A DNA stretch of 48,469 bases from Candidatus Saccharimonadota bacterium (GTDB taxonomy: Bacteria > Patescibacteriota > Saccharimonadia > Saccharimonadales > Saccharimonadaceae). Location: assembly GCA_016290315.1 (NCBI GenBank), contig JAEETK010000006.1, positions 1-48,469 of the forward strand, in the 5' to 3' direction. The notes under the pieces are model-generated. The model worked only from the letters and a program-made list of their open reading frames with translations, did not search any database and was not told the DNA's origin. Position numbers and translations under genes: made by a program. This document shows, piece after piece, positions 2,623-38,488 of the stretch. Position 1 is the stretch's first letter. Every line of letters starts with the position of its first letter.

Positions 2623-3380
2623 TATTCCTCCAGCGCTTCGGTTACCAAGCATCTAATATGTTCCTCGACTGCGTCAATCACCGGCGATTGAACCGGGTCG
2701 TCCGAACAGATATATCCACCCAGTACGGGGTTCGCAAGTATAACTACTTCCGGGCCTTGAGGCAGTTCTGAGGGAACCTGCCATATAAAGTTGACCAAAA
2801 GCTCTTTTGCGTCAATCACCTCCTCATCATCGGTCGGCCTTTCTCGGATGATTCGATCGATTAGTTCAATCTCTTCCGGGTAATCGGCCGTATCGACCAT
2901 TTCGATCCCATACTGTTTGAGCTGTTCTCCAATGAAGGAACTAGACATGTCGTCCTTTGTTCCCAAAACAAGAACATACTTGGCAGACATTGACTGAATC
3001 TTTTGCGCTACGCACTCCCAGAGTTCCAGCATGTTTACATCGACTTGGTAATGGGTTGGCGGCCAGATTACGCCTTCTACGACCTCGTGTAGCTCGGCAA
3101 CCGCAGGTTCTACTTCTCGCAGATTATCGGTTGCAAGCGCCACGCAACAGCATTTGTCTTTGAGTGCCAGATCGAGCGCTTCTTGGCTCATCTTTTCAGA
3201 GAGCTCGCCCCAATCTTCTTCTGTCTTCGGCGGCCCAGAACCTTGAAAGTCTGGACAGTAACGGATCACGAGCCTGGCGGCATTCGCATCTTCCGTACGC
3301 CGTTCAATCTCTTTGCTGATACCTTCGAGGTACATCAGCGTAGCGTCGTAACTAGTGGAAATAATTCCGATACTTTTCAA
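2622..3380 (-). CDS. Aspartate/glutamate racemase-fold protein lacking catalytic cysteines
   Basis: A 252-residue protein beginning MKSIGIISTSYDATLMYLEG, the N-terminal pattern of the Asp/Glu racemase superfamily (PF01177; usual form MKTIGIIGGMSWEST). The internal KYVLVLGTKDDMSSSFIGEQ matches the start of the second half-domain. Active members have two catalytic cysteines, in CTNT and GCTE motifs; here the aligned sites read ALATDN (about residue 83) and VILANPVL (about residue 216), so both are lost. A racemase reaction is therefore unlikely, and a binding or structural role is my inference. The start is a TTG at 3380; the in-frame codons just upstream include a stop, and a GGAAGGTGAT ribosome-binding site sits at the right distance. 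First gene of a two-gene operon. Confidence 0.6.
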   Translation of the reverse strand: MKSIGIISTSYDATLMYLEGISKEIERRTEDANAARLVIRYCPDFQGSGPPKTEEDWGELSEKMSQEALDLALKDKCCCVALATDNLREVEPAVAELHEVVEGVIWPPTHYQVDVNMLELWECVAQKIQSMSAKYVLVLGTKDDMSSSFIGEQLKQYGIEMVDTADYPEEIELIDRIIRERPTDDEEVIDAKELLVNFIWQVPSELPQGPEVVILANPVLGGYICSDDPVQSPVIDAVEEHIRCLVTEALEE

Positions 3381-12438: not shown

Positions 12439-12492
12439 GATCGACCAATTCAGACCTTTATGATGCATAGGTTGTGAATTAGTATAAGTCCA

Positions 12493-12521
12493 TTGACAAA
12501 AATAAGCATATGTGGTATAAT
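12493..12521 (+). promoter_or_regulatory. Promoter of leader B
   Basis: TTGACA (12493-12498), 17-nt spacer, TATAAT (12516-12521). Confidence 0.85.
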
Positions 12522-12540
12522 TAGACGAATAAACCCACTA

Positions 12541-12683
12541 GGGCTTATGGAACTTTAGGAAAATGCGTTAGATTCTCCCGATGGGGATTTGCGACTCATT
12601 CTGCTTAGCTATTATTAGGTAGTCGGAATGAGTCGCAAAAACCGCTCAAAGATTTTTCGGCGGCAATTCCGCCAGAAGGAGGA
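12541..12683 (+). promoter_or_regulatory. Structured 5' leader B, homologous to leader A
   Basis: Shares with leader A the GCTTAT...GAAC...AATGCGTTAG start, the TCTCC motif, a 13-bp stem (12591-12603 with 12624-12636), the CCGCTC single strand, and a GGCGG/CCGCC hairpin (12659-12673) ending just before AGAAGGAG. Base changes are compensated in the long stem: GCAACTC/GAGTTGC in A is GCGACTC/GAGTCGC in B, and a G-U pair in A is A-U in B. This covariation is good evidence for a selected RNA structure. Confidence 0.65.
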
Positions 12684-12685
12684 GT

Positions 12686-13213
12686 ATGAAGCTTGTAGTA
12701 ATTGTTGCTGTTCTGATTTTCATCGCACTCGTCGTGCGCTACTTAACCGATGACTACGGCAGCTATAGCGCCCTGAAGCCGGACTTTGTCTGGTACACCA
12801 AGGCGCTGGTGCAGACCTACTGGGACATGGTAGTCAGGGCGATCGCTCAGATTCCGCTTCCCATGGCTGACGGAGTATTTCGTTTTCCTGACGCCCGCCC
12901 CTTCGATTACTTTAAAGTAGGCGAAGATGTGGTTTTCATAAACTACATCTGCGGTGGAGTGATTTCCGAGAGCCTTCCGGCAGTCGCCAAGGGAGTCGTG
13001 ACAGCTATCAACGCCGCCGACGGCATTATCACGTTCACGGCATCGGTATCAGGTGAGGAAATACAGTTCTATAACTGTAGTAGCCTGCTAATTCACACCT
13101 GGGAACATGATCGTCTCAAGCGGCGCCCGATACTTAGGTACCTGTACTGCTACGACGCCAAGGGTACTTCGATTGAAGGTATCGGCAATGTGATTACCGA
13201 GGCCGCCGCCTAA
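12686..13213 (+). CDS. Unknown membrane-anchored protein under leader B
   Basis: 175 residues. MKLVVIVAVLIFIALVVRYL is an N-terminal transmembrane segment or uncleaved signal; the rest is probably outside the cell. The remainder (FKVGEDVVFINYICGG, then AVAKGVVTAINAADGIITFT) looks like a small beta-barrel of the kind that begins with a V-G-x-x-V turn. No family recognised. It is unrelated in sequence to the ORF at 8164 although both carry the same leader and the same terminator design. Confidence 0.6.
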   Translation: MKLVVIVAVLIFIALVVRYLTDDYGSYSALKPDFVWYTKALVQTYWDMVVRAIAQIPLPMADGVFRFPDARPFDYFKVGEDVVFINYICGGVISESLPAVAKGVVTAINAADGIITFTASVSGEEIQFYNCSSLLIHTWEHDRLKRRPILRYLYCYDAKGTSIEGIGNVITEAAA

Positions 13214-17878: not shown

Positions 17879-19630
17879 ATGAAGCAGTCGTTATTTAGAA
17901 AAATATACGGTATTTTAGATAAAAAACAGAAGATAAGTTTTTTGTTAGTATTATTACTCCTTGGAATATCGGCAATACTTAGCCAGATTACTCCGCTTGC
18001 TATCGGCTATCTTACAGATCAGGTTTTGGCTCAGGATGAGATAGTTTTCACGGCGGTCATTCCAATTCTGCTAGTTATTTTAGTAGTTACCGTCTCCAAT
18101 GAAATTATAAAAGTAATCAGGCGACTGATGATTGAAGGCGTTGCCACAAAGGTGGAGCTTAGAGCGAGAACAAAAGCTTCCAGTTCTCTAATGACGGCGC
18201 CACTATCGTATTTTCGTAAGCACATGACGGGCAATATTCACGGTCGCCTCAATCGTAGCATAGAAGGGGTGTCAAAACTCGTAAAACTGGTGTTTATGGA
18301 TTTTGCCCCAGCTATAGCCACGGGCGTTGCTGCAATTGTTGTAATTTTTACACAGCTACCTCCATTGGTCGCACTTTTGATAATCGCAGTAATACCGGTT
18401 GGACTTATTATCGTATGGCGCCAAATCGAGACCCAACGTGGCATACGTGTAGATTTAATGGAGCAGAAAGCCGAAATGGATGGAACTATGGTAGAGTTGC
18501 TTGGCGGCATTGAAACTATTCGCTCCTTGAACAGTGTCGATATGGAAGTATCGCGCGTCGAAAGCAAATCGAGTAATCTCCGTTCAAGAGAAATGAAGCA
18601 TCACAAATCTATGGCATTCTATGATTGTGTCAAGTTTATTAATGAAGCTGTTTTTACTGTCCTAGTTATTGCCATTTCTGTAGTGCTAGCCTCGAACGGT
18701 ATCATTGCGGTGGGTTCTATTTTAACTATCTATCTATGTTTTACTCAGCTAACCGCCCCACTTCGCGAGTTGCATAGAATTCTAGACGAATTATCCGAGT
18801 GTAAAGTGCTCGCAGATGACTATTTCAAGATTGCGGAGTTGCCAAAAGATTTCTCGTATCAAACGAGCGATAAATACTACGATGAAATCATTAATAACAA
18901 TGTCTTGCTGAAACATGTTTCAATGGGTTACGATGAGGAGCCAGACAAGAAGATATTAAACAACATTGATCTAGAAATAAACAAAGGAGAATTTATCGGG
19001 ATTGTTGGCCCAAGTGGTTGCGGAAAGTCGACTCTAATTAAGATAATTGACAAGCTAGAACAGGCAAGTGGGGAAATTAGAATTGGCGGTATTGATTTAT
19101 CAAAGCTCAGCCGTGCGGAGATTGCAAAATCTATAGCTTTAGTTCCGCAGACTCCTTTCTTAGTGGCCGGGACTATTGCTGAGAATATTGCTTATGGTCT
19201 AGAGGAAAATATTTCCCCAGAAGCAATTGCGGAGGCTGCCAAAAGCGCAAATCTCGAAGAAACTATTAATAACCTCCCCAAAAAATATAACTTTATGATT
19301 TCAGAAGGCGGCAGAAATTTGTCGGGCGGACAACGTCAGCGCATAGCGCTTGCTCGCATTTTTCTACGAAAACCAAAGATTCTGATATTGGATGAAGCAA
19401 CTTCCGCGCTCGACAATACGTCCGAAAAACATGTGCAAAAAGAAATTGAAAAACTAAAAGAAGAATACAACACCACTATTATATCTATTGCGCATAGGTT
19501 GACCACGCTACAAAACTGCGACGAAATAATCGTAATAGATAAAGGAAAAATAGTTCAGAGGGGCACCTTTAGTGAACTTTCCGATACTCCCGGCATCTTC
19601 CAAGATATGAAGAATGGCGTACTAAAATAG
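17879..19630 (+). CDS. ABC exporter, fused permease and ATPase (MsbA/LmrA type)
   Basis: 583 residues. The N-terminal half is a six-helix type I exporter domain; the C-terminal half is the nucleotide-binding domain with Walker A GPSGCGKST, signature LSGGQRQR, Walker B ILILDEATSALD and the switch histidine in SIAHR. It works as a homodimer or heterodimer at the cytoplasmic membrane to export a lipid, drug or peptide; the substrate is not evident. An extended -10 (TGCTATAAT; hexamer 17862-17867) lies 11 nt before the chosen ATG; the nearer ATG at 17871 is out of frame and runs into a stop after two codons. Confidence 0.9.
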   Translation: MKQSLFRKIYGILDKKQKISFLLVLLLLGISAILSQITPLAIGYLTDQVLAQDEIVFTAVIPILLVILVVTVSNEIIKVIRRLMIEGVATKVELRARTKASSSLMTAPLSYFRKHMTGNIHGRLNRSIEGVSKLVKLVFMDFAPAIATGVAAIVVIFTQLPPLVALLIIAVIPVGLIIVWRQIETQRGIRVDLMEQKAEMDGTMVELLGGIETIRSLNSVDMEVSRVESKSSNLRSREMKHHKSMAFYDCVKFINEAVFTVLVIAISVVLASNGIIAVGSILTIYLCFTQLTAPLRELHRILDELSECKVLADDYFKIAELPKDFSYQTSDKYYDEIINNNVLLKHVSMGYDEEPDKKILNNIDLEINKGEFIGIVGPSGCGKSTLIKIIDKLEQASGEIRIGGIDLSKLSRAEIAKSIALVPQTPFLVAGTIAENIAYGLEENISPEAIAEAAKSANLEETINNLPKKYNFMISEGGRNLSGGQRQRIALARIFLRKPKILILDEATSALDNTSEKHVQKEIEKLKEEYNTTIISIAHRLTTLQNCDEIIVIDKGKIVQRGTFSELSDTPGIFQDMKNGVLK

Positions 19631-19665
19631 TAATAGATTGCATTGCGTAGCGGAATTTATAGGTG

Positions 19666-19693
19666 AAAAAGCTCCTGAGCTAAGCCCAGGAGC
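19666..19693 (-). terminator. Terminator of the ECF S-component gene
   Basis: On the minus strand GCTCCTG pairs with CAGGAGC, followed by TTTTT. Confidence 0.85.
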
Positions 19694-19730
19694 GTAAAAC
19701 CACAAGAAGCAGATTTATTAACCGGCACAG

Positions 19731-20285
19731 TTATGCGGCCGTTTTGTCGATGCCATGTTCCGCTCCGTATCGAAGTTCCTTCGCGATCTTCTCTGTGGCT
19801 AAACAGATTGGTAAGCTAGCCACGATAACAAAAGCGTCCGATACGAATGACGTCGTGTTCTTGGCGACCCTCACTAAGATTGGCTGGCTGACAACCATGC
19901 TGTCTACAATAGACTTTATTACTTCGATGCCAATGAAAGTAGCAATGATTGCAACCAATGCAATAAGCACGACCTGCAAGGTTTTATGCCTTAGTGTCTG
20001 GATCTTTTTAATGGCAACGCCAAGAATTAGGCCGATGACAACGTTTCCGAGAGCCCATCCCGGCATACCATTAAAACCAAGGCCGCCAACGACGCAGTAT
20101 AGGATCACGCCGAGCGAGCCGACGACGGCTCCTTCGTACCAGGCAAAGTTCCAGGCATAGATTGTCATAACGATATATCCGAGACACAGATAATAATTCT
20201 CGAATACGGGGACCCTTAAGCACATCGAGAGTACTACGAAAAGTGCTATACCGAGTCCCATAAAAGTGATTGATCGTGTTCTCAT
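19731..20285 (-). CDS. ECF transporter S component-like membrane protein
   Basis: 184 residues with about six hydrophobic segments. The pattern (short N-terminal helix, GLGIALFVVLSMCLRVPVF, AVVGSLGVILYCVVGGLGFN, then PGWALGNVVIGLILGVAIKK) fits the substrate-binding S subunit of energy-coupling-factor vitamin transporters. It would need an EcfA/A'/T module from elsewhere in the genome. The vitamin cannot be told from sequence. Promoter on the minus strand near 20385 (TGTTATAAT) and a leader of about 100 nt that can fold; see the regulatory entry. Confidence 0.7.
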   Translation of the reverse strand: MRTRSITFMGLGIALFVVLSMCLRVPVFENYYLCLGYIVMTIYAWNFAWYEGAVVGSLGVILYCVVGGLGFNGMPGWALGNVVIGLILGVAIKKIQTLRHKTLQVVLIALVAIIATFIGIEVIKSIVDSMVVSQPILVRVAKNTTSFVSDAFVIVASLPICLATEKIAKELRYGAEHGIDKTAA

Positions 20286-20289
20286 GATT

Positions 20290-20380
20290 CCACCTACCTT
20301 TCTGTTTGTTCATGTACTAATTCCAATTAACGGTTATTGCGTTCATTATTTGAAACAAACGCTAAGGAATTTACGCAATA
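20290..20380 (-). promoter_or_regulatory. Foldable leader of the ECF S-component gene
   Basis: Between a probable extended -10 (TGTTATAAT on the minus strand, near 20385) and the ATG, AATTCC can pair with GGAATT and, nested inside, GCGTT with AACGC; ATTGCG/CGCAAT is an alternative pair. Vitamin-transporter genes of this type are often riboswitch controlled, but the sequence does not match a class I recognise. Confidence 0.3.
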
Positions 20381-20561
20381 TTATAACATAAAACCGAAAT
20401 AAGAAAAGGGTCAAGTGAAAAAACTCACAGGCTACCTGCCCCGTATTTGCTTTCCTTTTTTTGCGGCAGTATTGATGGCACTCTTGAAAAATCTGGATTT
20501 TATTGTAGAATTTCTAGAAGAGGAGGATTCCAAATAGTTCTTTAAGAAAGGAGTGAATTGC

Positions 20562-22384: not shown

Positions 22385-22389
22385 AGCAT

Positions 22390-22414
22390 AAAAAAGCTCG
22401 CAGTTACCTGCGAG
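22390..22414 (-). terminator. Terminator of the tandem-XRE gene
   Basis: CTCGCAG pairs with CTGCGAG on the minus strand, followed by T. The stop codon of the gene lies in the hairpin loop. Confidence 0.8.
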
Positions 22415-23066
22415 TAGTTGTTTTCGCATTTTCGGCACGAATAAGGCTTATGGCTGTTGCCAAAGTGATCTTGGTGTCTTTCTTTTCGAGTACTATTCCG
22501 TCCAGCATAGATAAGACAACTATATCCACGATTATAAGCTCATCCATTGAGACGCCAAGGGTGGCAGCCAAGGCTACCAGATGCTCGACTGCCGGCAGTC
22601 TAGTGCCGTGAATCCAATGATAGACTGCCTGTGTGGTTTTAGTGCCAAGAATCTTCTGTATGTCTCGCACGGTCATTTCGGCATCAATCCTTAGCTGATT
22701 AATCCTCTTACCGGTCGCTATAGCATCTATGTCTGGGACAAGCATTTGTCCGTAATCGCATATTGGCAAGTCGCACGTCATCTCCGCCAAGTTTTCCTCG
22801 TGTGCGAGTAGCGACTTCTTTGTCTTTGCGGGATAAGCGGTAGTGTCGGCAACTATGATTTCTTCCATTGGAGTACCCAATACTGCCGCCAGGATTACTA
22901 GATGCTCGACGGTCGGTAATGCGGCGCCGCTCAGCCACCTGTAGAATGTCTGTGAAGAGCTGATATCGTAGAAGCATTTGGCATTCAGTGTAGTCAGACC
23001 AATCTCGTTCATCAAAAGCCGAATTCTTTTACTCGTTGCAGTAGTGTCGATGATTGTGCTTTTCAT
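22404..23066 (-). CDS. Tandem XRE-type helix-turn-helix protein
   Basis: 220 residues made of two similar DNA-binding halves. Half 1: SKRIRLLMNEIGLTTLNAK, then QTFYRWLSGAALPTVEHLVI, LAAVLGTPMEEIIVAD. Half 2: GKRINQLRIDAEMTVRDIQK, then AVYHWIHGTRLPAVEHLVAL, AATLGVSMDELIIVD. The repeated LPxVEHLVxLAxxLGxxMxExI shows an internal duplication. Two XRE domains in one chain could bind a direct or inverted repeat without dimerising. A consensus-like promoter and GAGGGGGG site precede it. Target unknown. Confidence 0.75.
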   Translation of the reverse strand: MKSTIIDTTATSKRIRLLMNEIGLTTLNAKCFYDISSSQTFYRWLSGAALPTVEHLVILAAVLGTPMEEIIVADTTAYPAKTKKSLLAHEENLAEMTCDLPICDYGQMLVPDIDAIATGKRINQLRIDAEMTVRDIQKILGTKTTQAVYHWIHGTRLPAVEHLVALAATLGVSMDELIIVDIVVLSMLDGIVLEKKDTKITLATAISLIRAENAKTTTRR

Positions 23067-23131
23067 TTAAATCCCCCCTCTTTTCTATAAATAACGGCCA
23101 TGAGGCTACGAAAGGTCTCAGAGCTTCCGAT

Positions 23132-23160
23132 ATCATAACAGCATAGCTAAATGTCGTCAA
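23132..23160 (-). promoter_or_regulatory. Promoter of the tandem-XRE gene
   Basis: On the minus strand TTGACG (plus 23155-23160), 17-nt spacer, TATGAT (plus 23132-23137). Confidence 0.75.
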
Positions 23161-23208
23161 GTTTAGGCTTACTAGGGATGTTTATTTTGGCTATGGCGGA
23201 ATGTCGTG

Positions 23209-23724
23209 CTACTTGATTCGTATCTGTTTTCCTTTTTCGCAATGTTTATAGAATTCGATGCACGATAAGTTTTTCGCGGGCGCAGCGTATTCGTATATGA
23301 CAAGATTTCGCGAGTTAAACTTACCGCCAAGTTCGTTCTCAATGAATTTATTCCGAATATCGGAAATAGCTTCTTTAAAATTGGCATATTCGTGCAAGCC
23401 GCGCAGGGCAGCCCACGCATGCTCGTGCCAGAAGACTTTTCCGCCATGTTCAAAGATTATGAACGTATGGGTCGGGCACTTATCTTCGTCGTAATGGACA
23501 ATGAAAAACGAGCGCACGGCAATCCCGCAATCGTTAAATAGTTTTCGCTGTAACTCTACTTGATCCCAGCAAACCCCAAGTCGACTCTTCAATAATTCGT
23601 CTGGCATTTGAAGTATATATTTCTCGGCAAACTCCGCCATGTCGGCGTGCTTAGCGCCAGCATTGTCCACCCAGCCATATTGTATTAACGACATTTTTGC
23701 GTCAATATCTTTTATAAAATCCAT
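23209..23724 (-). CDS. Transglutaminase-like (papain-fold) protein
   Basis: 171 residues. LGVCWDQVELQRKLF holds the likely catalytic Cys52, THTFIIFEHGGKVFWHEHAW the His86 and an acidic partner. This is the C...H...(D/E) layout of small transglutaminase-like proteins. It may cleave or crosslink amides; target unknown. TATAAT on the minus strand (plus 23732-23737) ends 7 nt before the ATG, so it is leaderless. One copy of the 22-bp repeat (23735-23756) overlaps this -10 box. The papain-fold gene at 24484 faces the same way upstream and was probably adjacent before the ncRNA cassette arrived. Confidence 0.75.
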   Translation of the reverse strand: MDFIKDIDAKMSLIQYGWVDNAGAKHADMAEFAEKYILQMPDELLKSRLGVCWDQVELQRKLFNDCGIAVRSFFIVHYDEDKCPTHTFIIFEHGGKVFWHEHAWAALRGLHEYANFKEAISDIRNKFIENELGGKFNSRNLVIYEYAAPAKNLSCIEFYKHCEKGKQIRIK

Positions 23725-23734
23725 ACATTTTATT

Positions 23735-23756
23735 ATATCGCCAAGGCGCTAGAGCA
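23735..23756 (+). repeat. 22-bp direct repeat, left copy
   Basis: Identical to 24470-24491; core TATCGCCAAGGCGCTAGAGC, containing the small palindrome CGCCAAGGCG. The pair brackets the promoter, the tandem ncRNA and the terminator exactly, with no coding sequence between. Confidence 0.85.
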
Positions 23757-23768
23757 AATATGTAAGTA

Positions 23769-23797
23769 TTGACAAAAATTACAACGTGTGCTATAAT
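23769..23797 (+). promoter_or_regulatory. Promoter of the tandem ncRNA
   Basis: TTGACA (23769-23774), 17-nt spacer, TATAAT (23792-23797). Transcription should start near 23804, at the first base of repeat unit 1. Confidence 0.85.
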
Positions 23798-23804
23798 TCA
23801 ATCA

Positions 23805-24104
23805 TGCTCAAATGACATCCCCAGTGCCAAATGGGCGCAACTTGAACAATTGCCACCGTATTGTCCTACGATGGAGCAACAATTGGGATAGTATATTAGT
23901 ATATTTTAAATGTGTGGGACACCTCCAGTCTTAGCCGAAAAGGCTGGAACGCATCCTGGGGCTTCGAAATGACCACAGAAAGTGGTGAAATTAAAAAATG
24001 GGGCGAGTAGGGGCTCCTATAAAGAAGACGGTTTCAAGGCAAAGCCCTCAGAGGGCAAAATGGGAATCGATCGCTTCACTCTACGCAGGTCTCAATCCTG
24101 CAAC
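23805..24104 (+). repeat. ncRNA repeat unit 1
   Basis: Begins TGCTCAAATGACATCCCC and ends with the GCAGG/CCTGC hairpin plus AAC. Contains a small GCCCT-CAG-AGGGC hairpin (about 24044-24056) absent from unit 2. Confidence 0.8.
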
Positions 24105-24116
24105 ATGGCTGAACTG

Positions 24117-24396
24117 TGCTCAAATGACATCCCCAGTGTCAAATGGGCGCAACTTGAACAATTGCCACCGCATTGTCCTGCGATGGAACAGCAATTGGGA
24201 TAGTGTAAATGTGTGGGACACCTTCAGTCTTAGCCGAAAAGGCTGGAGCGCATCCTGGGGCTTCCGAAAGGAAGGAAACGACCACAGAAAGTGGTGAAAT
24301 TTAAAAATGGGGCGAGTAGGGGCTCCTATAAAGAAGGCGGTTTCAAGGCAAATGGGAATCGATCTCTTCACTCTACGCAGGTCTCAATCCTGCAAC
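24117..24396 (+). repeat. ncRNA repeat unit 2
   Basis: Same sequence as unit 1 with scattered changes, one insertion (GGAAGGAAAC region near 24270) and two deletions. It runs into the terminator. Confidence 0.8.
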
Positions 24397-24402
24397 CCCC
24401 CA

Positions 24403-24434
24403 CCCCCGTAGAAGGCTACGGGGGTTTCTTTTTT
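24403..24434 (+). terminator. Terminator of the ncRNA
   Basis: CCCCCGTAG pairs with CTACGGGGG across an AAGG loop, followed by TTTCTTTTTT. Confidence 0.95.
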
Positions 24435-24469
24435 CTGAAAAAAAGACCAAAGTTTATGGGGTCACACGA

Positions 24470-24491
24470 ATATCGCCAAGGCGCTAGAGCA
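24470..24491 (+). repeat. 22-bp direct repeat, right copy
   Basis: Identical to 23735-23756. It contains the stop codon of the papain-fold gene (CTA at 24484-24486 on the plus strand). Confidence 0.85.
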
Positions 24492-25044
24492 GATACTTTG
24501 AATCCTCGATCTCATCAAAATCCATCGTAAAATTGACGCTGTTATATTTTAATATGTCTTCGTTTAATTCTTTATTATCCAACCTTACGATGAAGGAATT
24601 CTTATAATTTATATCTCTAAAATAATAACTCCCGTCATCGCTATCAATATCTGCCAACAAGCCAGCTTGCGAATCCATGACGTATATCTCGCCATCGATG
24701 TTTAGCAGAATAAATTCATGTCCTCCAGAAGAACCCTTCCAGTTCACGTGGCAATAAAACCTTTTCCCGCTCAAGGCTTTTTGTCTTAATTCGTTTTCAT
24801 TGCGAAAATGTATTTTTCTAGCATATTTGACTATGTTTGCATCCGTGAACTTAAAAATGACATCTCTAGGGGAATATACCGGCCTAGGCAGAATATCGAT
24901 GCCTCTAAATTGGGCTTCGGTACACCATGTACATAGTAGGCAGTTTTGGTTTCCGACTGGTTCTTTCTTATCTTTTTCGACTTTGTTGCTAATTCTTTTT
25001 ACAATCTTTTGCGCAAATCGTTTAGTATTGGTGGCTTCTCTCAT
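24484..25044 (-). CDS. Papain-fold (Tox-PL / glutamine deamidase-like) protein
   Basis: 186 residues. The pattern NQNCLLCTWCTEAQFRGIDI, then GGHEFILLNIDGEIYVMDSQ and AG, matches the Tox-PL papain-fold family (PF15644), in which Cys, His and Asp/Gln form the active site: Cys35, His109, Asp124 and Gln126 here. Family members are deamidase or peptidase toxins and phage MuF-type C-terminal domains. There is no signal peptide; a basic N-terminal segment (AQKIVKRISNKVEKDKKE) could serve for membrane or nucleic-acid contact. With the transglutaminase-like gene it makes a pair of thiol enzymes that act on side-chain amides. No immunity gene is obvious. Confidence 0.65.
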   Translation of the reverse strand: MREATNTKRFAQKIVKRISNKVEKDKKEPVGNQNCLLCTWCTEAQFRGIDILPRPVYSPRDVIFKFTDANIVKYARKIHFRNENELRQKALSGKRFYCHVNWKGSSGGHEFILLNIDGEIYVMDSQAGLLADIDSDDGSYYFRDINYKNSFIVRLDNKELNEDILKYNSVNFTMDFDEIEDSKYLL

Positions 25045-25198
25045 TGAATCGTCCCTTCCGAAAATCTCTTTTGTTAATTATATAATTCTTAGAAAAATCG
25101 GCCAAAAACTGAGCCGAGCAGAGTTATTGCCGTAGGGGGCATATATCAAAATAATATAATGCCATAAAAGGATGGAATGAGATTATATTTAGCTAACG

Positions 25199-28482: not shown

Positions 28483-28559
28483 TGGTGGGCCTTACTGGGC
28501 TCGAACCAGTGACCTTACGAATGTGAATCGTACGCTCTAGCCAACTGAGCTAAAGGCCC
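28483..28559 (-). tRNA. tRNA-Val (anticodon CAC)
   Basis: Full cloverleaf on the minus strand: acceptor GGGCCTT/AAGGCCC, D stem GCTC/GAGC, anticodon stem TACGA/TCGTA with loop TTCACAT, T arm ACTGG-TTCGAGC-CCAGT, discriminator A and an encoded CCA. TGGTATAAT lies just upstream as an extended -10. Confidence 0.95.
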
Positions 28560-35989: not shown

Positions 35990-38488
35990 ATGAATAAGAT
36001 TGCTAAGGCGGGTATTGGCATCGCAGCCGTTGCTGCTGTTGCTGCTACCGGTGCGCTTGTAGCTTTTGCTTGGGGCCCTTCACGTACTACATATACGCTT
36101 GAAAAGCCTGCTACAAAAGTTACGTTCAACTCTATTACTAATAACAATAAAGAAGTTGGTGATGAGCGCTACTTTGTAAGCGCTTCTCCATACACTGGTG
36201 ATGCTTCTAAAAATCACTGGACTGATAACACTCAAGTTGAGAATGGTAAAGAGTATGTCGTTCGCATGTATGTACATAACAACGCTGCTTCTAACCTTAA
36301 TCTAACCGCAAAAGACGTAAAAGCTTACGTCGTTTTGCCAACCACTACCGGTACAGAAATTACCGTAAGTGGTAAAATTACTTCTTCAAACGCTGACCCA
36401 GTCTCCGTTTGGGATGAAACTACTTTTAAATCCAAGAATGGTGAAAAGTTCAACCTTGCCTACGTAGATGGTACCGCAAAGTATTACAACAATGCTGGTA
36501 CTTTCAAACTCGGCACGAGCGTATTTACTAACTCTGGTCAGCTTCTTGGCTATAGCAAGATGGATGGCAATATTCCAGGTTGTATTCAATACTCTGGTTA
36601 CCTTACTTTCCACGTTAAAGCTCAATTCGCTGCTAAACCAGCTCTCGAAATTCAAAAGGAAGTAAAACTTCTTGGCACTGATACTTGGAGCGAACAAATT
36701 AAAGCCAAAGCTGGCGACACTGTTCGTTATCGTATTCAGGTTAAGAATACTGGCAATACGCAATTGCAGAACGTTCACGTTTTCGACGTTCTTCCTAAGG
36801 GTCTAACTTACGTAAAAGGTTCGACTACTGTTGCTAATGCTACTAATCCAAAAGGTATCGCCGTTAGCGATAACATCGTTACGGATAACGGTATCAATAT
36901 CGGTACTTATGGCGCCGGTGCAAATGCTTGGATCTACTTCAATGCTACGGTTGATAAGTCTGTAAGCGAAGAATGTGGTAATACGATTCTTCGTAACATT
37001 GCACAAACTTCCGCTGGTTCCAGTACTGGTACTAAAGAAGATACGGCAGACGTCATTGTTGACGGTAAAACCTGTAAAGATGGCTTTACTATCGACAAGA
37101 AAGTAAAGAACGCTGCTGGTGAGTATGTTGAAACCGCTAACCTTAAGGCTGGCGAAAATGCTCACTACCGCATCGCATTCAAGAATACTGGTGACACCAC
37201 TTTGAAGAACGTCATCATCAAAGATACTCTTCCTGCAAACATGACCTATGTCAAAGGTAGCACGAAGATCGACAGTAAAGCTGCTGCTGATGGCATCGTT
37301 TCTGACGCTGGCCTCAACATCGGTAACGTAGCTGCCGGTAAGACCGTATATGTCTACTTTGATGCTTTTGTTGCTAAGACTCTTGGTGACAAGTGTGAGA
37401 CTACTACCCTTACTAACACCGTTAAGGGTACTTACAATAAAGATGACAAGACTGCTAAGACTGACACTGCAGTCGTAAAGATTGAAGGCAAGTCCTGTAA
37501 AGATGGCTTTACTATCGACAAGAAAGTAAAAGACGCCAACGGTAATTATGTAGAAAGCACCACCCTCAAGGCTGGCGAAACTGCACATTATCGTATTGAA
37601 TTCAAGAATACTGGCGACAACGAACTCAAGAACGTTGTCCTCAAAGATACGCTTCCTTCCAAGATGACCTATGTCAAGGGTAGCACTAAGATTGGTAGCA
37701 CCGCTGCAGGTGATGGCATCGTCTCTGGCGAAGGCCTCAACATTGGCAACGTCGCTGCTGGCAAATCCGTTTATATCTACTTCGACGCTAAGGTTAACGC
37801 TGGTGTAGGCGAAGATTGCGCCGACGCTACTCTAACCAACATTGTTGAAGGTAAATATAACAACGATGATAAAACCTCCAAGACTGACACTGCGGTCGTA
37901 AAGGTTGACGGCAAAGAATGTAAAGATGGCTTCATCATCAACAAGATGGTTCAAGCCGACGGTGGTAAAGAGTGGAGTGAAAACGTCACTGTTAAGGCAG
38001 GCGACAAAGTTCGCTATCGCATCCAATTCAAGAACACTGGCGAAACAACTCTAAAGAATGTCGTAATTCGCGATCTTCTTCCAAGCAATATGACCTACGT
38101 CAAAGGCAGTACGATTCTTTACAATTCTGCAAACACCAACGGTAAAACTCTTGCCGACGGTATCGTATCGACCGAAGGTATCAATATTGGCGATTATGCC
38201 AAGGGTACCGAAGCAACGATTTACTTCTACGCTACGGTCAATGCATCTTTGAAAGATAACTGTAACGGTTCTACTCTTACCAACACTGTAAAAGGTAAGT
38301 ACAACAACGATAGCAAGACTGAGAAGTCGGATACTGCTGACGTTACCGTACCTGGTAAGGACTGCAAAGAACCAACTCCAACGCCATATCTCCCAGAGAC
38401 TGGTGCAGGAGAAATTATCAGCGGTGTACTTGGCCTTGCTGCCGTAAGCACTGCTGCTGGCTACTATATCATTAGCCGCAAAAAATAA
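35990..38488 (+). CDS. LPxTG-anchored surface protein with four DUF11 repeats
   Basis: 832 residues. A signal peptide (about 1-28) leads an N-terminal domain to about 216, then four repeats of the DUF11 beta-sandwich (PF01345) beginning near residues 217, 361, 501 and 643. Each has the VRYRIxxKNTGxTxLxNVxxxDxLP and MTYVKGST motifs and most end in a cysteine before KDGF. The C-terminus is PYLPETGAGEIISGVLGLAA, a hydrophobic helix and ISRKK: a standard sortase substrate. No sortase gene is in the window. It likely projects from the cell surface, for example in adhesion to a host bacterium (inference). Repeats 2 and 3 share long identical DNA (from about 37074 and 37495). Confidence 0.9.
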   Translation: MNKIAKAGIGIAAVAAVAATGALVAFAWGPSRTTYTLEKPATKVTFNSITNNNKEVGDERYFVSASPYTGDASKNHWTDNTQVENGKEYVVRMYVHNNAASNLNLTAKDVKAYVVLPTTTGTEITVSGKITSSNADPVSVWDETTFKSKNGEKFNLAYVDGTAKYYNNAGTFKLGTSVFTNSGQLLGYSKMDGNIPGCIQYSGYLTFHVKAQFAAKPALEIQKEVKLLGTDTWSEQIKAKAGDTVRYRIQVKNTGNTQLQNVHVFDVLPKGLTYVKGSTTVANATNPKGIAVSDNIVTDNGINIGTYGAGANAWIYFNATVDKSVSEECGNTILRNIAQTSAGSSTGTKEDTADVIVDGKTCKDGFTIDKKVKNAAGEYVETANLKAGENAHYRIAFKNTGDTTLKNVIIKDTLPANMTYVKGSTKIDSKAAADGIVSDAGLNIGNVAAGKTVYVYFDAFVAKTLGDKCETTTLTNTVKGTYNKDDKTAKTDTAVVKIEGKSCKDGFTIDKKVKDANGNYVESTTLKAGETAHYRIEFKNTGDNELKNVVLKDTLPSKMTYVKGSTKIGSTAAGDGIVSGEGLNIGNVAAGKSVYIYFDAKVNAGVGEDCADATLTNIVEGKYNNDDKTSKTDTAVVKVDGKECKDGFIINKMVQADGGKEWSENVTVKAGDKVRYRIQFKNTGETTLKNVVIRDLLPSNMTYVKGSTILYNSANTNGKTLADGIVSTEGINIGDYAKGTEATIYFYATVNASLKDNCNGSTLTNTVKGKYNNDSKTEKSDTADVTVPGKDCKEPTPTPYLPETGAGEIISGVLGLAAVSTAAGYYIISRKK

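Follow-up and report, generated by a model that had tools for sequence, protein, structure and literature searches.

How did a 713-bp cassette that carries an RNA gene and no conserved reading frame come to lie between two genes whose products resemble thiol enzymes, and what does it encode? The cassette lies in a window (the whole stretch of DNA that was analysed, 48,469 nucleotides) that is contig C29 of a 1.2 Mb assembly in 74 contigs, with an estimated contamination of 8.4%. An earlier note on this DNA had read the locus as a recent insertion of an RNA-only mobile element with a target-site or att duplication. The anatomy that it described was borne out (Table 1): the two 22-bp repeats are identical and bracket 713 bp; the cassette contains a perfect promoter, two RNA units and a terminator; the left repeat overlaps a TATAAT upstream of the transglutaminase-like gene, and the stop codon of the papain-type gene falls within the right repeat. 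The statement that transposase and terminal inverted repeats are absent also stands, as the cassette has neither terminal inverted repeats nor a conserved reading frame. With the cassette and one repeat taken out, 24 nt would separate the two genes, in place of the 11 nt given originally.

A perfect TTGACA-N17-TATAAT is expected by chance about 0.01 times per strand in the mono-shuffled window. Direct repeats that match exactly over 18 bp or more and lie no more than 2 kb apart are likewise few: with the RNA units excluded, there are three in the whole window, including the 22-bp pair and a tRNA-Arg pair. A 37-bp exact direct repeat is located at 37071 and 37494, with a spacing of 423 bp. Searches of Pfam, PADLOC and NCBIfam returned no match for the product of the transglutaminase-like gene.

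Table 1. Coordinates of the cassette, its flanks and related features in the window.
Feature	Position	Strand	Remarks
Left 22-bp direct repeat	23735..23756		26 bp (to 23760) if one mismatch is allowed; G022 has a single copy at its empty site; putative native recipient copy
RNA cassette	23757..24469	+	713 bp; missing from the G022 empty site
Consensus promoter TTGACA-N17-TATAAT	23769..23797	+	same layout ahead of the RNA in G039, G233 and G390
RNA unit A	23805..24104	+	300 nt; 324 bits
RNA unit B	24117..24396	+	280 nt; 322 bits
Intrinsic terminator ACCCCCGTAG-AAGG-CTACGGGGGT plus T-run	24402..24434	+	GC-rich; homologous tail in G233
Remnant: cassette tail and first bases of the ~200-bp site (TGAAAAAA-AGACCAAA-GTTTATGG)	24436..24459	+	matches the tails of the G233 and G038 cassettes (p at or below about 0.0005)
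Right 22-bp direct repeat	24470..24491		holds the stop codon of the papain-type gene; putative donor copy
Putative imported block, right-hand part, G039-like	24470..24685		homologous crossover at about 24683-24688
Transglutaminase-like gene	23209..23724	-	conserved GVCWDQ...THTF; homologue is an array cassette in G029
Papain-fold-like gene	24484..25044	-	weak Gln_amidase match, just under cut-off
tRNA-Val	28483..28559	-	3′ end is a putative unoccupied cassette attachment site; occupied in G039; in G029 its 3′ flank adjoins a cassette site

The two RNA units are 95.6% identical over aligned columns. A protein-coding origin was rejected, as indels between the units disrupt all reading frames and no frame is kept across them. 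An insertion specific to unit A, ATTAGTATATTTT, is common to the orthologous units of genome G039, so the tandem duplication predates the split between the window and G039. A covariance model was built on four units and run against 394 genomes. Homologues of the same family were detected in a second genus, at G233:C9 (74 bits) and G390:C36 (67 bits). A rebuilt model gave a weaker match at G357:C21 (22.8 bits, E 5e-5), which was accepted because a TTGACA -35 element lies upstream and a GC-rich terminator downstream. The family is thus present in at least five Saccharibacteria genomes from two genera, and the G233, G390 and G357 homologues all come with a promoter and a terminator. By DNA similarity, only the window genome (G000) and G039 carry the RNA among 45 genomes of the genus, and a search of 393 genomes of the order returned only these two and G233, indicating that the RNA is rare and patchy in distribution.

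Across seven units, 95.7% of paired cells in the alignment are standard pairs. Double changes were found in 33 of 77 pairs, as compared with 11.1 in shuffles and 2-7 in slid controls, and none of 500 shuffles reached 33; because the alignment had been fitted to the structure model, it is biased towards that structure and the 33-pair figure is inflated. UGUCC and GGACA occur once each in all seven units and neither varies, with UGUCC in the loop of helix 4, and a pseudoknot between them is possible. Permissive and curated Rfam scans passed no family's gathering cut-off, and the window copy had no creditable match at E values up to 10. As judged from covariation in the aligned units and the Rfam scans, the RNA is a new structured family. 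It resembles ROOL, GOLLD and raiA in being long, stand-alone, strongly structured and patchily distributed, and differs from them in matching no creditable Rfam model over the same range of E. No DNA resembling the cassette was found in phage and plasmid records. Neither the RNA nor the site pattern was found in viral contigs, where two 18-mer matches were checked and rejected as chance. At the G390 locus (L084:1411-1536), the first RNA hairpin (CTCAAATGA-YGCCTCGGCGTCAGATGAG) is present three times in tandem ahead of the main RNA.

That the cassette was inserted between the two genes could be checked by looking for an empty site among relatives. G022:C34 has both genes with a single 26-bp copy of the repeat between them and no cassette; window segments 23209-23760 and 24470-25044 map to this contig and share overlap bases 3157-3182. 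The 713-bp cassette is a real insertion. In G039, the right 22-mer and then the papain-type gene follow the cassette, whereas the left neighbour of the cassette is the end of an ABC-transporter gene and the left 22-mer is absent from the locus. G005 and G029 have papain-type genes with no adjoining cassette. A search of the genus for the 22-mer argued against a dispersed repeat, as the other exact matches are codons in conserved protein-coding genes.

The flanks of the cassette differ in ancestry. On the left, the window is 96.2% identical to G022, rising to 98.8% over the final 169 bp. On the right, it differs from G022 by 12% over 24470-24669, as compared with 1.2% on the left side. Identity to G039 is 94.7% for the cassette and 94.8% for the adjacent right flank; this equal divergence implies that the insert is not recent. 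Within the papain-type gene, the affinity of the window changes: identities to G039 and G022 are 96.4 and 87.2% over 24490-24685 and 92.6 and 95.0% over 24686-25064. Site patterns in 24470-25065 switch at 24683-24688 (changepoint permutation p 0.0008), with G039 sharing 21 of 23 informative sites to the left of the changepoint and 14 of 37 to the right. Identity between G039 and G022 is steady across the gene (88.8 and 90.2%), while those of the window to G022 and to G039 shift in opposite directions, which marks the window as the recombinant. As judged from these site patterns, the flanks show that the window imported the cassette from a G039-like donor onto a G022-like background.

Together with the cassette, the imported block would comprise the right 22-mer and about 215 bp from the papain-type gene. 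Its right end would be a homologous crossover within that gene. As the donor lacks left homology near the cassette, the left end was probably joined through short homology just past the resident 22-mer, where the recipient reads GATAC, the donor AATACG and the window AATATG; the left junction of the cassette is known from one assembly only, and all genomes compared here are draft assemblies. The direct repeat is single-copy at the empty site, yet its two flanks are of differing ancestry; it would combine a resident copy on the left with a donor copy on the right, as a by-product of import. A duplication left by a mobile element, with later exchange, may also account for it. Homology-facilitated illegitimate recombination is a known outcome of natural transformation (PMC3240628), and Saccharibacteria are naturally competent (PMC10633639). 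The window resembles such events in having a one-sided homologous crossover with a short-homology join opposite, which would account for the direct repeat; it differs in that the event is read from sequence, with a G039-like donor. The cassette DNA may therefore have entered by natural transformation.

Two other histories of the locus can be set against import. A non-autonomous, transposon-like element might have inserted with a 22-26-bp target-site or att duplication, with G039 later losing the left part across AATAYGT. The empty site with exactly one copy and the clean 26-bp repeat are what such an element would leave, and a 7-bp microhomology could account for the deletion in G039. However, a right flank 12% and a left flank 1.2% away from the empty-site relative are unexpected for a simple insertion in place. 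The cassette also lacks the terminal inverted repeats of a transposon, and the 22-mer is unlinked to the RNA in G233, G390 and G357 and unlike the ~200-bp site described below. We regard this history as unlikely. Alternatively, the cassette could be ancestral at the locus, with G022 having lost it through recombination between the 22-mers or by taking up an empty allele. Such a deletion could be mediated by the 22-bp repeats, and the window and G039 have both the cassette and the right flank in common. This fits poorly with the steady identity between G039 and G022, which marks the window as the recombinant, and with the papain-type genes of G005 and G029 that have no cassette beside them, making ancestry at this locus quite improbable.

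The claim of a recent RNA-only mobile element with its own duplication holds in part. The presence of the RNA gene in five genomes at differing places supports mobility in a wide sense, but not a self-contained recent element. There is no need to invoke a target-site or att duplication, given the absence of the left 22-mer from G039, the lack of linkage between the RNA and the 22-mer elsewhere, and the mosaic flanks.

Other segments of the window also differ from relatives. Single-gene insertions relative to G022 occur at 19630-20438, with a gene for an ECF-transporter S component, and at 22385-23191, with an HTH gene bordered on both sides by an imperfect 12-bp direct repeat, AGGGATKTTTAT. 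A promoter-leader-gene unit, with TTGACA...TATAAT, a structured-looking leader and a small membrane-like protein, is found at window 12491-12993 and at L053:2995-3497 in G031; the two units sit at differing places, and the G031 copy truncates a papain-type gene. AATACGT was considered as a cassette core and rejected: it is present at the ABC/cassette junctions and once in G031, where comparison with window 12485 makes its occurrence look fortuitous.

In two other genomes, the RNA is associated with a second kind of repeat, of ~200 bp. In G233 it is flanked by a full copy and an end copy of this repeat, and in G390 it lies between partial copies; at the locus shared by the window and G039, and in G357, it is outside arrays. 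Arrays of the repeat are found at G038:C20 (L118), G038:C26 (L117), G029:C9 (L052) and G039:C1 (L119). They contain about one gene per repeat, with the repeats co-oriented and spaced mostly 0.6-1.5 kb apart, and their cargo includes serine hydrolase, AadA-like, LysE, GNAT, methyltransferase, SDR and peptide deformylase proteins, as well as a homologue of the transglutaminase-like gene (in G029). In model coordinates, the eight array-end repeats all terminate within 163-168, and the array-first repeats begin no later than 163. Five of these eight overlap the final ~10 bp of a tRNA gene that lies on the opposite strand (tRNA-Met in four cases and tRNA-Ala in one), and a partial repeat overlaps tRNA-Val in G039. 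A common TGGTGG is the complement of the ..CCACCA end of the tRNA. The 143-bp flank of the unoccupied tRNA-Val in the window is 97.9% identical to the DNA on the left of the array-first repeat in G029. Because of the junctions at end and first repeats and the tRNA-Val comparison, the ~200-bp repeats are best read as sites of site-specific insertion at tRNA 3′ ends.

The cassette in the window can be linked to these sites through its tail. The G233 and G038 cassettes read TGAAAAAACCTAGACCAAATTGTTTAGGG (in G233, ..GTTTAGAG) and run into the start of the ~200-bp site; the window tail, TGAAAAAA-AGACCAAA-GTTTATGG, matches those of G233 (p about 0.0005) and G038 (p below 0.0005). At the end of contig G038:C29 (L124/L043), the 3′ part of the RNA, terminator included, survives immediately after a partial ~200-bp site, and can be read as an RNA cassette with an internal deletion. 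A functional ~200-bp site is missing from the window copy itself. Given the match of its tail to the site start, the window copy would most simply be a former array cassette that has lost most of its site. The 22-mer was considered as a decayed ~200-bp site and rejected, as the resemblance did not exceed that of shuffles.

No recombinase was found within 1.5 kb of the ~200-bp sites at the loci examined, so we infer the mobility of the arrays from their anatomy. A single Xer-like enzyme is encoded in most genomes and phage-like recombinases in some, and none of these lies beside a ~200-bp site. Array loci contain no tyrosine recombinase, and integrase loci contain no site, except beside a remnant in G029:C2. 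There (L136, 1501-1997), a remnant of a tyrosine recombinase and a partial ~200-bp site are separated by about 400 bp, and the remnant is possibly a relic of the cognate recombinase.

The same repeats might instead be regulatory spacers, each combining a tRNA terminator with a promoter or ribosome site and spread by homologous exchange, so that the RNA would be merely another gene between them. The repeat does contain purine-rich stretches ahead of genes and, for the tRNA strand, a hairpin resembling a terminator, and the absence of a nearby recombinase is consistent with this proposal. Spread by homologous exchange is hard to reconcile, however, with end copies that stop no more than six positions apart at the tRNA CCA end, with first copies that start near there, or with the divergence of occupied and empty tRNA-Val ends at exactly that point; we consider the proposal doubtful. 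A role of the repeated RNA as a leader, as a riboswitch or as an antitoxin RNA for an adjoining protein is very unlikely. Its neighbours resemble thiol enzymes and are possibly effectors, as might befit such a role, but the RNA stops at its own terminator, the papain-type gene is on the opposite strand and runs towards the RNA, and the neighbours differ in every other genome. The terminator and the varying neighbours both argue against a leader.

Taken together, these data favour, with a probability of roughly 0.6, an accessory structured-RNA cassette that derives from tRNA-anchored single-gene arrays, is now decayed and was imported into this locus by recombination. The element of the earlier note is more plausibly a single cassette that belongs to a wider gene-shuffling system and was carried here by recombination. 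Its product would be a structured, untranslated RNA with its own strong promoter and terminator, and the tandem duplication would place two RNA units on each transcript. The RNA would most likely be made at a high level and act in trans as an accessory RNA. Its natural vehicle would be same-orientation single-gene cassettes that carry one ~200-bp attachment site apiece and are strung together from an anchor at tRNA 3′ ends; excision and integration of these cassettes would be carried out by a recombinase acting from elsewhere.

The arrays can be compared with several known systems. Like integron arrays, they have one ~200-bp site per gene in a common orientation (G038:C20, G038:C26, G029:C9 and G039:C1), accessory cargo (AadA-like, GNAT, SDR, peptide deformylase and Ser_hydrolase proteins) and a partial site at the array start. 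Unlike integron arrays, they have their anchor at tRNA 3′ ends, and the search next to the sites revealed no integron integrase. The RYYYAAC ... GTTRRRY boxes of attC sites are present in none of 21 full ~200-bp repeats on either strand, and assignment of the repeats to attC was rejected on this ground. Cis-mobilizable or tRNA-accreted elements, the relatives of ICEs and IMEs, similarly consist of recombinase-less units stacked in tandem at a tRNA 3′ end, and the att core here lies at the 3′ ends of tRNA-Met, -Ala and -Val with about 10 bp of overlap with the end repeats. The units described here differ in that each is one gene, 0.6-2 kb in size, and has a long conserved site, and no related ICE or IME was found. 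Somewhat short of even odds, and tentatively, we propose an integron-like, non-integron mode of capture, in which single-gene cassettes with ~200-bp lambda-type att sites integrate serially at tRNA 3′ ends through a distant recombinase, one of them carrying a non-coding RNA gene. A literature search, with incomplete coverage, found no description of such arrays or of the RNA.

Saccharibacteria are ultra-small epibionts with shrinking genomes. To our knowledge, few non-coding RNAs are known in Patescibacteria, and the RNA described here adds an unlisted family of large, structured RNAs to this group, with an RNA gene that appears to spread as accessory cargo. A tRNA-anchored cassette system could explain the continued uptake of single genes by these organisms, including acetyltransferases, AadA-like enzymes, hydrolases and possible effectors.
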